From Xanthostigma xanthostigma (taxonomy: Eukaryota > Arthropoda > Insecta > Raphidioptera > Raphidiidae): 64,000 nucleotides of DNA. This document shows, piece by piece, positions 58,947 through 64,000 of the stretch (position 1 is the stretch's first letter; every line of letters starts with the position of its first letter). The stretch spans positions 43,556,001-43,620,000 of the forward strand of contig OY754466.1 of assembly GCA_963575645.1 (NCBI GenBank), in the 5' to 3' direction. The notes beneath the pieces are model-generated. The model was not told the origin of the DNA and searched no databases. It saw nothing but the letters and a program-made list of their open reading frames with translations. The position numbers were made by a program, and so were the translations under genes.

Positions 58947-60475
58947 CTATGACAAGATTTATGAAATAGTCCACCGCACTGTTCATCTGATCACACTGGA
59001 AATTATGGATGGATCGAACATTTGCAATGGAGCTAATTTAAGTATAATTATCCTTTTATATTAGCTACGTTCATCGACTCTTGCCTTTTATTCCGGAAAA
59101 GATTATTATTTGTTAAATTCTATAACAACATTTTAGTTGTGTTGTTCATCGGATTTTGGAGTATATTATCATACCTATTCCTAACTTCTCCTTGGTCAAA
59201 ATAAAAGATTATTACAGTCAGCCCAGATTTTCTGACTCTCAAACCAACAGTAGTCAATGAACGGTAATTATAATTTCAGAGCTTCCTGTGGAGACGTACA
59301 TTCAAATCAAGGTCATGGATACACCGCATGACATGAAAAGGACAAGAACAGTCCTTAGCGAGGGCAGTCCAGTGTGGAAGGAGAAATGCACCTTCTTTGT
59401 CCCTATCAAATTGAATCCAATAGTCGGTAAAGATCCTATTCTATATTTTAAGAAAAGCAATCGTCGTGCCCTGTGTCGACAAAATACAGTATTTGCAAAT
59501 AGATTCACAGTGATATTATGTGAGCAAAAGTTTTTGGATAAAGTAAAAATGTGAACCGTCGTGGAACGCCTGGCAGATGCGAGCTTCTAGTAACTTTTCA
59601 CCCTGCCATCTAACGAAATTCTAGTATCTAAATTTCGCCATGTATCTGAATTTCGCCCTGTCATCTATTGGAGATGTAGCTAAAATACGCAGCTGATGTA
59701 TTGCTAGTAGTGATGTGCCGGATATCCGTATCCGTATCCGCGGATATCCGAGGGAGAAGAAAGATACGTATCCGTTAGTTTTTTTGCGGATATTTTACGG
59801 ATCTTTTACCTTATTAATTTTCAATTCATAGATGAAATTTTATATATATCTAGGTGAGTAGGTAATAATGAAAACCTGTTAAATTCCATTCAAATTATTT
59901 TTTATTTTTTTAAATCGTATTTGGCACCTTTATATTGTAAACATTTATCGTAGTGAGTACCATACTAATAGTACATAACTCAAAGGTACTAAATCAACTA
60001 TCTTTTTAATGAGATATTGCACATCGATCTTTGGAAAGAGACAATTTGTTATGAGAGTTAACTCTTAAAGAGGTCAAAACCTTTTTCCCATAGTCTCTTT
60101 CCAAAGGTCGGTATGCAATATTTACCGCCACGTACTCTAAGAAAGTTAAGATCCGTATCCGTATTCAGATCCGTATCCGCGGATATACATTTTTAACGGT
60201 CCGGCACATCACTAATTCCGAGAAACCTACGAGCGAGTAGCTGAGCATCATATCGTCAAATCGCGATAAAGTATCCTATAAGTCGCGTCTTTTCGATGCA
60301 AAAAGTAACATGTAATGATCACGTATGCGTAATGTGACAGAGAGTATTGTTTATTTCAGAATTTCATATAATGAATCCAACCGAAATGGGACCCACAAAT
60401 CTTGGTACGTACTATTTACAAATGAGGGACATCCAAGTAGTCGATTGTCTTCCGCTTTCGTTCAAATATAAACAA
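58947..60475 (+). other. C2 domain of the cPLA2-like protein, calcium ligands substituted
   Basis: Three exons encode about 119 residues resembling the cPLA2 C2 sandwich. Aligned by eye to vertebrate cPLA2-alpha, the loop-1 Asp43 position is Glu (ETYIQI against DPYVEL), loop-2 Asn65 is Ser (LSEGSPVW), and loop-3 Asp93 and Asn95 are Asn and Thr (IMNPTEM). Calcium-driven membrane docking is therefore doubtful. The loop-1 residues equivalent to Asp40 and Thr41 fall near the exon junction (GANL-K-LPVE) and are also not conserved. The alignment is manual and loop placement could shift by a residue or two. Confidence 0.7.
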
Positions 60476-63400
60476 GTAAGTAGCTTTCAGTGTTCTTTAT
60501 ATCTCCAAAATTGTTAAAATAAATAAGGCTTGAAAATAGCCGAGCACAAGACTGTGGACTATAAGGCTCATTTACACGGGTATAGTTGCGGGTAGATTAA
60601 AGTAGCAAGTAGAGTGCACTCTACCGTCCGCTCTTGCTCTACCGTTTCATCTCTGAATTTGGTCACACAACGTATAGTACTGATGCTAGCATAGTGTGAT
60701 GTGGTGTCTGTTGGACTCCAAAGCCCCCCATTGCCATTCTTTCCACGATTTTATTTTCCGCAGCTTGCTTCATATTTTTATTTCTGTAGTTTACACTACT
60801 TAAATTCCATAAACACTCGTATTCGCCACACAACTCTACAAGTTTTAAAGTTTCATCTTCGCTGAATTTCATTTTCACTATTTTATTTAAACAAGACACA
60901 ACGTGGCTTCAGCCGGAATGACAGCGTCCTCTCTCCTACCTACTATACTCTACTACAGAATCAGACCGCGTTCCATGGGTAGAGTGCGTAGGCAAGTGGA
61001 TATTTTGACGGTGGTGGTGGTAGTAGAGTAGACTTACTTTGTCACATGTCGCTAGTAACTCTACTCTACCACCTACTACACACTCTACTCTACTGACTGT
61101 TTATACGGGTAGAGTTACTTTACTCTATCAAGTACTTGCCTCATTGCCTCATTAGGCCCCAGGCACGATACGAGCGGCGAGCGTCGAGCGGCACTCGAGC
61201 GTCACCAGAGCGGCGAGGGTGGTCACGATACAAGCGGCGTTAGAGCTGCTGTTTGAGCGGCAACCTTGATTTGTATCCAGCCACCAGTGTGTCGCAATAT
61301 GCCTTCGAGTGAGGACCTAGTACATCTTCTGTTGTTATCGGAAAATTCAATATTGAAAAGGCGGGTAGTTCGGAGGTGCAAGCGTGGGATAAAAAGAAGG
61401 GGGGTTCATCCCATTCACAGGAGAAGAAAGGGTTTATGGAGAGTACCACCATCTCATCAAACAGGGATGAACGACACTGAGCTACACATATCAAATTTTC
61501 AATTTGAGTATCACTAAGCTTTTTCAAAGCAACAATGTCCTTTTTCTTAAGTTTGCCGGAGGCCCACGTAGTTCTTGCTCCTTTGAGATCTTGAACTAGA
61601 CTGAAAACCGTGGGAAGAATCATGACTCATCTAAGCGTCGAGCGTCGTACAAAAAGTAATCGGGTAGGATTTGGCGGTGCCTTCGACGCTAAGCGGCGCC
61701 GCTCACTGTCGCTCACCGCTCAGGTCTATCGTGACACCCCTCTTCAAATTTGCACGGCAACATATGGGGCCCGATTGCACTGCGGTGCCGCTCTGACGCT
61801 TGACGCTCGACGCTCACCGCTCGTATCGTGCCCGGAGCCTTACTCTACCCGTGCAAATGAGCCTGTAAGTTGTGATCATACACATATCTGTGGTTGTGAC
61901 ACAGTGTGTGCTATTCATGATCCGCGCAGAACGGGGGCAAGCGCACGTTGCCTGTTGTGCGTCTAATTATTCAAACAATAATAGAGATTCAAATAGTCAT
62001 TATTATTATCTCTATTGTCGTTTTAATCAACATAATAATTTCACATATCGGCGTACAGAATTGGACTGCTGTAGTCCCCCAGTACACATTCAACGACGGA
62101 GGAAAGAGAGGACAATAAATTTAGGGTATTGCGTACGCCTCTTTGTGACGTAATTTTCAATGAACACAGTGAGATATTTTAGAAAAACAATATCAACGTA
62201 ATTTATAGAAGTAAATCAACTCCAAAAGTAAAAAATAATTGTCCCAATTAATATCATAATATATCTTCATTACATTATGTTGAGCTGTCTTCGCAAGACG
62301 TAATTTTTGAAGTAAAACTTCAAAGGCACGCTTGACTTGGGGAGTAAGCTGGTGAATGCGTGGCGAGAGATTTACGGAAGTGTGATCGGGCGAGGCAAAC
62401 GGAAGTTGAGAGGGAGATATAAGTCAGTGAAAATAGAAAGAGGATGACAAATACTTCACTGGCTAGTGACGCCATTAGGTGGCCGAAACAAATACTTCAC
62501 TGGCTAGAGGCGCCATCAGGTGGCCGAAAATATAAGCAGTACTAACAATACAATGACACATACTTTACTTGCCAGTGGCGCTATCGGGTGACAGAAAAAA
62601 GTTTTGTAAACCTACTTAACTTGCAGAGCTAAATAATATTTAATAAAGATTTACGCTTAAAATCCAACGAGAGTTAAGTAATTGCAATGTATTACTTTTG
62701 TTTTCATTATCTTTATATTTCTTTCTTCTTACATTACACTGTTCATTTCGTTCTTGAACAATTTTATAAATTAATATTTTGTTCAATACAATAAATATTC
62801 TACGTTTAAAGTGAATAAAATATTGTAAATTCATTTAAAGTTCATATTTTGTGAATTTTCAGGTGAATAATAAATTATGGCAGGAAGAAGTTTTACTTCA
62901 GTCGTGTGGTTTAAAGCACACTCGTTTTTTTTATGAAAACTGCCATATTTACTTTTGGAATTGATTTATTTTTATAAATTACTTTGCTCTCTTTCTGACG
63001 TTTCCGTATTAGACGTTTATCTTTGAGGTTTCCTTATTGGCGCTTTACTATCAGTAGATCTGCGTATTGTTGGTGAACGATGAAGGAGTGTGCCTCCACT
63101 TTATCGTCCTCTCTTTCTATATCATTTAACTCCCGCAGTCTAGACTAGTCATATGCTTTTACATATTATCGCAATGTGTTGTTGCAGGGCGCAAGAGTAA
63201 ACATTTTGTATTCAAGGAAAAGAGAGTAAGTAACGTATTTAAGAGTTCTCTTAAAATCTTAAAACATAACTTTTGTTCATTTCATGATTACGTCAATTTG
63301 AATCAAACTCTAAAATCTGAGAAACTTTATGCCAACATTAAAGGAATCGTTAGAGCGCTAAACATGTCTGTTACGAATTATTAAAAAAACACACATGTTT

Positions 63401-64000
63401 TCATTAAACGTAAATAATCTGAATTAAAATATTTTTTAGTGAAATACCGGACCTATGGATTGCGAATGACATTTCACTTACTGAAAAGGTTTTCTATAGA
63501 AAAAGAAGGCAAATCATATTTAATACAATAAGAAGAATGTTGCCAGAATCAAAGAGACCAGCAAGCATAGAAAAGGTGAAAAAATGTGAATAAAAATCTA
63601 TAAAGAAATTAAATTTACGACTTTTGAGCTCATATTTTCAGACACCAATAATTGGGATCGTGGCATCAGCTGGAGGTATACGAGCCAGCATTGCTTTGGC
63701 AGCTGTGATAGAAGCTTTACAAGAACTGAAATTATTTCAATTGATTATGTATATATCAAGTCAAGATGGTTCTTCATGGTATGAATTATATTCTTCTTTA
63801 GATCCAATGTACACTCAATTATAGTTTTAAAAGTTTCAAAATTAACGGCGAAATTTTTTTTAAAAATATCTTCAAAAATAAAATAAATATTTCTCTCGTT
63901 CTTCTGCTACATTCTGTATAAAAAGATTTATTTTACATTTTCGCTATTCTAGGTATTTATCTCAGCTTTATACACACCCTCAATTTATGGAAAAAGGCGC
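58947..64000 (+). CDS. Cytosolic phospholipase A2 (group IV)-like gene, partial, 7 exons, possible pseudoenzyme
   Basis: The family binds membranes through an N-terminal C2 domain and releases fatty acids from phospholipids with a Ser/Asp dyad. Exons are 58947-59041, 59280-59426, 60360-60475, 63188-63225, 63440-63575, 63642-63778 and 63953-64000. All introns are GT-AG and every phase joins, giving 239 codons. Order: C2 domain (start YDKIYEIVHRTVH; middle KRTRTV...SPVW; end NLGTYYLQM), linker PDLWIANDISLTEK, then lipase start TPIIGIVASAGGIRA and YISSQDGSSWYLSQLYTHP. Family members have a GLSGS nucleophile elbow; here the aligned stretch is SQDGS, so the catalytic Ser is Asp. The oxyanion Gly-Gly and the Arg two residues later are kept. 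The first coding exon is not identified (58947 starts mid-codon) and the C-terminus lies beyond the window. Splice sites and frames are intact, so it does not look like a decayed pseudogene. Family assignment is from recognised motifs, not a search. Confidence 0.85.
59708..60214 (+). mobile_element. hAT MITE family 1, copy 4, inside a cPLA2-like intron
   Basis: Same TIRs and central hairpin as the copy at 14201, but 507 bases long because of small deletions near the right end. Flanks ATTGCTAG and ATTCCGAG are an imperfect 8-bp duplication (6 of 8), suggesting an older insertion. It lies in the intron 59427-60359 and leaves both splice sites intact. Confidence 0.88.
60663..60899 (-). CDS. MADF-domain protein fragment of a transposon
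   Basis: 78 codons on the minus strand. The core MKFSEDETLKLVELCGEYEC, then LWNLSSVNYRNK and KIVERMAMGGFG, is a near-textbook N-terminal MADF (Adf-1/Myb-like DNA-binding) domain. Only the first part of the domain is present before the frame ends, and no downstream half was found, so it is a remnant. It lies entirely within the TIR element 60564-61864 and is antisense to the host gene. Confidence 0.7.
   Translation of the reverse strand: MSCLNKIVKMKFSEDETLKLVELCGEYECLWNLSSVNYRNKNMKQAAENKIVERMAMGGFGVQQTPHHTMLASVLYVV
61155..61839 (+). mobile_element. PIF/Harbinger element, deletion derivative, TTA duplication
   Basis: TIRs of the form GGCYCCRGGCACGATACGAG; flanks are TTA (61152-61154 and 61840-61842), the 3-bp duplication typical of Harbinger. 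On the + strand 61299-61470 resembles the start of a Harbinger transposase: RRGVHPIHRRRK, then in another frame YGEYHHLIKQG, so a frameshift is present. A remnant of another ORF runs on the minus strand (LKKKDIVALKKLSDTQIENL, about 61485-61623). The two meet head to head where the middle was deleted. Confidence 0.65.
61865..63187. other. Rest of the large cPLA2-like intron
   Basis: Apart from the tandem repeat at 62449-62600 only AT-rich sequence is seen. Confidence 0.5.
62449..62600. repeat. Tandem repeat, three units of about 50 bases
   Basis: Units contain AATACTTCACTGGCTAG and GCGCCATCAGGTGGCCGAAA; the third is more diverged. It is inside the 2.7-kb intron 60476-63187 of the cPLA2-like gene. 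Confidence 0.7.
63642..64000 (+). other. Start of the cPLA2 catalytic domain, nucleophile replaced by Asp
   Basis: Exon 63642-63778 ends in the middle of a Trp codon (tg|gtatga) and exon 63953 onward supplies the last base, giving SSW-YLSQLYTHPQFMEKG. This matches the family block STWYMSTLYSHP and fixes the alignment across the elbow: family YVAGLSGSTW against YISSQDGSSW here. The nucleophile position (Ser228 in cPLA2-alpha) reads Asp. Glycines of the oxyanion loop (SAGGIRA against SGGGFRA) are retained apart from the first Gly, which is Ala. The partner Asp of the dyad lies outside the window. Confidence 0.8.

Follow-up and report, generated by a model that had tools for sequence, protein, structure and literature searches.

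The locus holds an intact-looking gene related to group IV PLA2 (cPLA2), of which 20 exons can be joined in phase from position 58947 to 82918 (Table 1). Numbering follows the window, which is the whole stretch of 64,000 nucleotides that was analysed (C3:43556001-43620000, in an assembly of 623 Mb and 28 contigs). The locus was extended rightward from the window on contig C3, and numbers above 64000, including those of the last exon (82850-82918), lie to its right. The joined exons encode a product of 1,204 amino acids with a stop codon at the end and no internal stops, and 19/19 introns have GT-AG borders and compatible phases. The preliminary description had considered the exon frames and splice sites intact, and this holds across all 20 exons and 19 introns of the extended gene. 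Exons were picked by eye under the guidance of the human sequence, and the phmmer alignment of the product served as the check. This alignment spans product residues 7-406 and 945-1176; for the exons of residues 407-944, which lie outside it, the only criteria were splice sites, phase and an open frame.

Table 1. Exons of the cPLA2-like gene that lie in or enter from the window, in window numbering.
Feature	Position	Strand	Basis or content
First recognised exon, start of the C2 domain	58947-59041	+	First base completes a split codon
C2 domain exon	59280-59426	+	Human cPLA2-alpha D40, D43 and N65 replaced by L, E and S
C2 domain exon	60360-60475	+	Human cPLA2-alpha D93, N95 and Y96 replaced by N, T and E
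Short exon, end of C2 domain and linker	63188-63225	+	phmmer alignment
Exon entering the catalytic PLA2_B domain	63440-63575	+	phmmer alignment
Elbow exon	63642-63778	+	Oxyanion-loop Gly-Gly and Arg200 kept; GLSGS replaced by SQDGS
Exon YLSQLYTHPQFMEKG...	63953-64000, running on beyond the window to 64175	+	phmmer alignment

Since the first recognised exon begins inside a split codon, at least one further coding exon is expected upstream of 58947. Scanning 30001-58940 with patterns based on the human N-terminus found no first coding exon, and the product as joined is therefore without its N-terminal residues. A candidate exon near 62863 (VNNKLWQEEV) was dropped because its phase, worked out by hand, does not fit. 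A further stretch of 26 codons at ~64262-64341, to the right of the window and in phase 0-0 (by hand), was omitted from the model and has no Pfam match. It contains PFPLFQALS (~64265), which resembles PFPIYSCIS of the next real exon, with 5/2000 shuffles scoring as high; against human alpha and delta, 24/2000 and 47/2000 shuffles do so. This stretch is a possible cryptic or duplicated exon. The window also contains nine ORFs of at least 110 residues, none belonging to the cPLA2-like gene, and Pfam searches of two of these gave no match. A fragment of a MADF DNA-binding domain lies on the reverse strand in intron 3 (60663-60908; Pfam 25.8 bits, cut-off 22), perhaps derived from a transposon inserted there.

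Searched with phmmer against PDB chains (E <=0.01), the joined protein matched five distinct sequences, all cPLA2, namely 1cjy (alpha, 2.2e-104), 5ixc (delta, 3.4e-63) and 5iz5 (delta, 3.8e-63) and the C2 structures 1bci (1.1e-4) and 1rlw (7.8e-4). Pfam assigns the protein a PLA2_B domain at 111.7 bits (cut-off 23) and a C2 domain at 26.3 bits (cut-off 22). PLA2_B scores 26.6 bits on the 61-residue fragment from exons 63642-63778 and 63953-64175 alone; as both PLA2_B scores exceed the cut-off, the likeness to cPLA2 is not due to chance. NCBIfam, a library of prokaryote families, gave no match to the protein. Most types of group IV PLA2 contain a C2 domain, with gamma lacking one. The combination of PLA2_B with an N-terminal C2 domain, together with the match to 1cjy, upholds the earlier proposal of a cPLA2 homologue, and on sequence grounds the locus belongs by descent to group IV PLA2.

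The closest comparison is with human cPLA2-alpha (PLA2G4A; 1cjy), which has C2 and PLA2_B in the same motif order over 627 aligned positions, 201 of them identical (26/124 in the C2 part). Both proteins have Gly197, Gly198, Arg200, Asp549, the RPQRGVDLI block and, in the C2 domain, R59 and R61. Human cPLA2-delta (5ixc, 5izr) is collinear in the catalytic domain with 132/416 aligned positions identical, and unlike the insect protein it retains GISGS. Where alpha and delta are identical to each other, the insect protein keeps 84/144 positions and has changed 60/144.

The elbow exon has TTTCAG upstream and GTATGA downstream and reads TPIIGIVASAGGIRASIALAAVIEALQELKLFQLIMYISSQDGSSW; the Trp codon of YISSQDGSSW is split TG/G between it and exon 63953-64175. 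In the phmmer alignment the elbow block matches 1cjy and 5ixc without gaps (YVAGLSGSTWYM and YFSGISGSTWTM against YISSQDGSSWYL). Unlike in human cPLA2-alpha, the position of Ser228 is occupied by Asp219 (codon GAT, 63765-63767), and the preceding Gly226 and Leu227 are Ser and Gln. An Asp at the nucleophile position, aligned without a gap and with the Gly-Leu before it replaced, had been read from the window beforehand, and the two structures support each part of that reading. The available text of PMC6550875 gives Arg200, Ser228 and Asp549 as the catalytic site residues. Arg200 and Asp549, as expected of an active enzyme, are present (Arg191 and Asp1006 in the joined protein), and the Ser nucleophile in GxSGS is absent. 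Also kept, in human alpha numbering, are Gly197, Gly198, Gly229, Ser230, Trp232, Gln565, Arg566, Gly567, Asp569, Arg579 and Thr680. Changes besides the elbow are Gly196 to Ala, Thr231 to Ser, Val548 to Gly, Ser577 to Asn and Ser550-Gly551-Leu552 to Gln-Thr-Pro, which leaves the dyad Asp in GDQTP where human alpha has VDSGL. By its sequence, the predicted protein is a pseudoenzyme in that it lacks a residue essential for catalysis in a fold predicted from homology.

Faulty assembly or sequencing is extremely unlikely to explain the elbow, and no sign of either was seen; a sequencing error at this site was among the caveats of the preliminary description. Going from Ser to Asp alone takes two base changes, and by a hand count the replacement of all three residues takes four or more, so a single base error cannot account for the elbow. 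The frame is kept on both sides, and the C2 ligands are changed as well, in other exons. Another caveat, that transcripts might use a different exon supplying GLSGS, finds no support in the extended locus, as G-x-S-G-[SGTA] is absent from the three forward frames of 57001-84000 (27 kb). The same absence weighs against an ordinary active phospholipase, in which an adjacent Ser, a splice variant or an RNA edit would provide the nucleophile. Ser residues do lie at -3, -2, +2 and +3 from the elbow Asp, and cPLA2-type activity is listed for Rhodnius and Spodoptera, without a gene, in the accessible part of PMC6375067. However, the alignment is free of gaps on both sides of the elbow, human alpha and delta have the +2 Ser as well, and by the genetic code A-to-I editing turns GAT into a codon for Gly, not Ser. 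An active enzyme of this kind has little probability.

The Asp itself could conceivably serve catalysis, with the carboxyl pair Asp219-Asp1006 forming a new, Ca2+-independent catalytic centre in the cPLA2 fold. Although Ser is lost, Arg200, the oxyanion glycines and the counterpart of Asp549 remain, and Asp, unlike Ala or Gly, can act as a nucleophile. The elbow also keeps a small-x-nucleophile-x-small pattern (Ser-Gln-Asp-Gly-Ser), as in haloalkane dehalogenases and epoxide hydrolases, where Asp is the nucleophile. However, the cPLA2 fold is not known to have a general-base His, and the neighbours of the dyad Asp have changed too, although human delta has VDAAY at this site. Chemistry by the Asp219-Asp1006 pair is unlikely, and very little probability is given to a new centre as the explanation of the gene.

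The C2 domain has changed at its Ca2+ binding loops as well. In the part of PMC6550875 available, the Ca2+ side-chain ligands are Asp40, Asp43, Asn65, Asp93 and Asn95, with Tyr96 as the choline reader. Compared with human cPLA2-alpha, 0/5 of these ligands are identical in the insect protein, the change of D43 to Glu being conservative, and Tyr96 is Glu. The assignment of D40 to Leu is the least certain due to a two-residue gap in the loop-1 alignment. L33 is in or beside the split-codon region at the start of exon 59280-59426. The five side-chain ligands of a Ca2+-switched C2 domain of the cPLA2-alpha type are thus not found, and their loss makes the usual Ca2+ switching unlikely. Arg59, Arg61 and His62 are tied to ceramide-1-phosphate binding in the same partial text of PMC6550875; Arg59 and Arg61 are kept and His62 is Thr. 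Some electrostatic lipid binding by the insect C2 domain is possible on the predicted residues.

A further difference from human cPLA2-alpha is the distance between two aligned blocks of the catalytic domain, which is 538 residues (407-944) in the insect protein versus 74 (415-488) in the human enzyme. The insertion is encoded outside the window, falls at the position of the phosphorylated linker of the human enzyme and, like the loss of the C2 ligands, was beyond the preliminary description. Residues 431-731 are 39% Lys plus Glu, and the insertion exon contains an in-frame tandem repeat of 72 bp/24 bp that codes for Lys/Glu-rich sequence (L004:537-911, in the extended locus).

The main rival to a maintained protein is decay, with relaxed constraint from the loss of catalysis onwards; the gene would then still be intact through chance or because its release is very recent. 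Divergence is fast, and the 201/627 identity to human alpha, compared with the 60% given for shrimp and horse cPLA2 by TBLASTX in PMC3792876, counts against maintenance and is also compatible with relaxed constraint. The changes at 60/144 of the positions identical in alpha and delta, the loss of the Ca2+ ligands and the swelling of one exon by tandem repeats likewise favour decay. Among the positions identical in alpha and delta, 4/8 are kept in the two catalytic motifs versus 80/136 elsewhere (Fisher p 0.72), so the active site has eroded no more than the rest of the protein. This even spread of losses suits decay and counts against a maintained pseudoenzyme. However, the 20 exons and 1,204 codons contain no stops or frameshifts, the introns are GT-AG throughout, and the dyad Asp, Arg200 and the oxyanion glycines persist.

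How long such a gene could stay intact without selection was estimated from the 5.5% of single-base changes in the 1,204-codon frame that create a stop, on the assumption of 0.05 x 0.85 frameshifting indels for each substitution and of 76 bases needed for splicing. The probability of an intact gene is then 0.12, 0.014, 0.00019 and 4.9e-10 at 0.5, 1, 2 and 5% divergence, respectively. Under neutral drift, the probability of at least four substitutions in the nine elbow bases is 1.6e-7, 2.5e-6, 3.8e-5 and 0.0012 at the same divergences. Had Gly and Leu been replaced earlier, leaving only Ser to Asp (two changes in three bases) for the time after selection was released, the value at 1% would be about 4e-4 (by hand). 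A 1% divergence is therefore too short for the elbow changes under the assumed neutral rates, and the gene would already be intact with a probability of only 0.014. As both probabilities are low, they argue for selection on an intact protein after loss of the nucleophile. On intactness in one genome, the assumed indel and splice rates and a site chosen post hoc, selection for the intact frame probably went on after the elbow changed. Decay is considered unlikely, though it carries some weight.

It is reasonably likely that this intact-looking insect gene is a group IV PLA2 turned maintained pseudoenzyme, with a role as a binding or scaffold protein. By homology, the protein would fold like cPLA2. 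With Ser228 missing the acyl-serine intermediate would not form, so PLA2 chemistry should be absent, and membrane translocation by the usual Ca2+ switch would also be lost. The fold and the long, partly Lys/Glu-rich segment may instead bind phospholipid, membrane or a protein partner, and the protein would then be a putative scaffold or regulator instead of supplying arachidonate. A Ca2+-independent role of this type is favoured because many catalytic-domain residues are kept, the Ca2+ ligands are lost and a long, partly charged segment has been gained. There is precedent in the human enzyme, as the available portion of PMC7226022 describes vesiculation in cells that express cPLA2-alpha with no functional catalytic domain; phagocytosis dependent on membrane binding by C2, but not on catalysis, is cited there as well. 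In the same portion, membrane bending by cPLA2-alpha is Ca2+-dependent and requires both Ca2+-binding loops, and tubulation needs catalysis. The membrane-bending precedent may therefore not carry over to an insect C2 domain without Ca2+ ligands.

The genome is that of an insect, as shown by 78 matches to the insect-specific odorant receptor family PF02949; its mitochondrial tRNA genes run I-Q-M and W-C-Y, an order that argues against ditrysian Lepidoptera. The gene appears to be single in this genome. A search of the 623-Mb assembly with PF01735 gave one match (3/3 candidates scored), which is one exon of the cPLA2-like gene. Searching the genome with the joined protein at E up to 1 gave 12 matches (12/12 candidates scored), all at the one locus. 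Neither a second PLA2_B locus nor a paralogue with an intact Ser was found in the 623 Mb; as the family search misses 19/20 exons of the cPLA2-like gene, a divergent paralogue could be missed. Among viral contigs, three stretches fit a pattern for relatives and none were confirmed. The same genome contains 11 matches to group III-type secreted PLA2 (PF05826) and four to patatin-type proteins (PF01734). One patatin-type protein (iPLA2-like, locus L029) differs from the cPLA2-like one in having kept GTSTG and DGG. Patatin-type proteins and cPLA2 have a related Ser-Asp dyad hydrolase fold. A forward-only view of the fragments at the other three patatin loci contained no patatin-like GxSxG stretch.

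Three published papers, among them PMC6375067 and PMC11059263 in the portions available, state that cPLA2, or the cPLA2-type C2 domain, is not known from insects. This agrees with the remark in the preliminary description that many insects reportedly lack group IV PLA2. In the accessible text of PMC11059263, the statement concerns an 'F.' species, in which no cPLA2 was encoded. In the accessible part of PMC6375067, cPLA2-type activities in Rhodnius prolixus and Spodoptera exigua were recognised from their dependence on Ca2+ and their sensitivity to MAFP. An insect with a full-length group IV gene runs counter to the published absence. Among other arthropods, cPLA2 is reported from Penaeus monodon and, by citation, from Daphnia pulex in the excerpted text of PMC3792876, with 60% identity between P. 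monodon and horse cPLA2 by the authors' TBLASTX. These crustacean proteins are group IV PLA2 by the authors' annotation; unlike the insect protein, and as compared by published description, they are reported in the prostanoid pathway. No report of an inactive cPLA2 was found in the open-licence literature, and insect 'cPLA2-like' database entries may exist. With nucleophile and Ca2+ ligands both gone, the predicted protein suggests that at least one insect retains a cPLA2 that is no longer an enzyme. Such a protein would offer a natural way to test the function of the cPLA2 fold when no lipids are cut, a question already raised for the human enzyme by the catalysis-independent effects described in the available portion of PMC7226022.

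Two further features were observed elsewhere in the genome. Of 18 contig ends examined, 13 (L032, L034-L038, L040-L042, L044, L045, L048 and L049) consist of tandem repeats with units of 21, 24, 42 or 44 bp, for example TTTTTTCCCTTTTTTGGCCCG, and not of plain TTAGG arrays; in C3 and C6, the terminal 42-bp unit includes one TTAGG. No such array is present at the other 5/18 ends, which are the starts of C2, C7, C11 and C14 and the end of C1; C1-C13 are 18-84 Mb long and C14 only 24 kb. The contig-end repeats possibly represent an unusual telomere. Lastly, COX1-like matches with stops occur on C6 and C2 (L007 and L008), though a TGA by itself would be read as Trp in mitochondria. These matches are probably nuclear copies of mitochondrial DNA.
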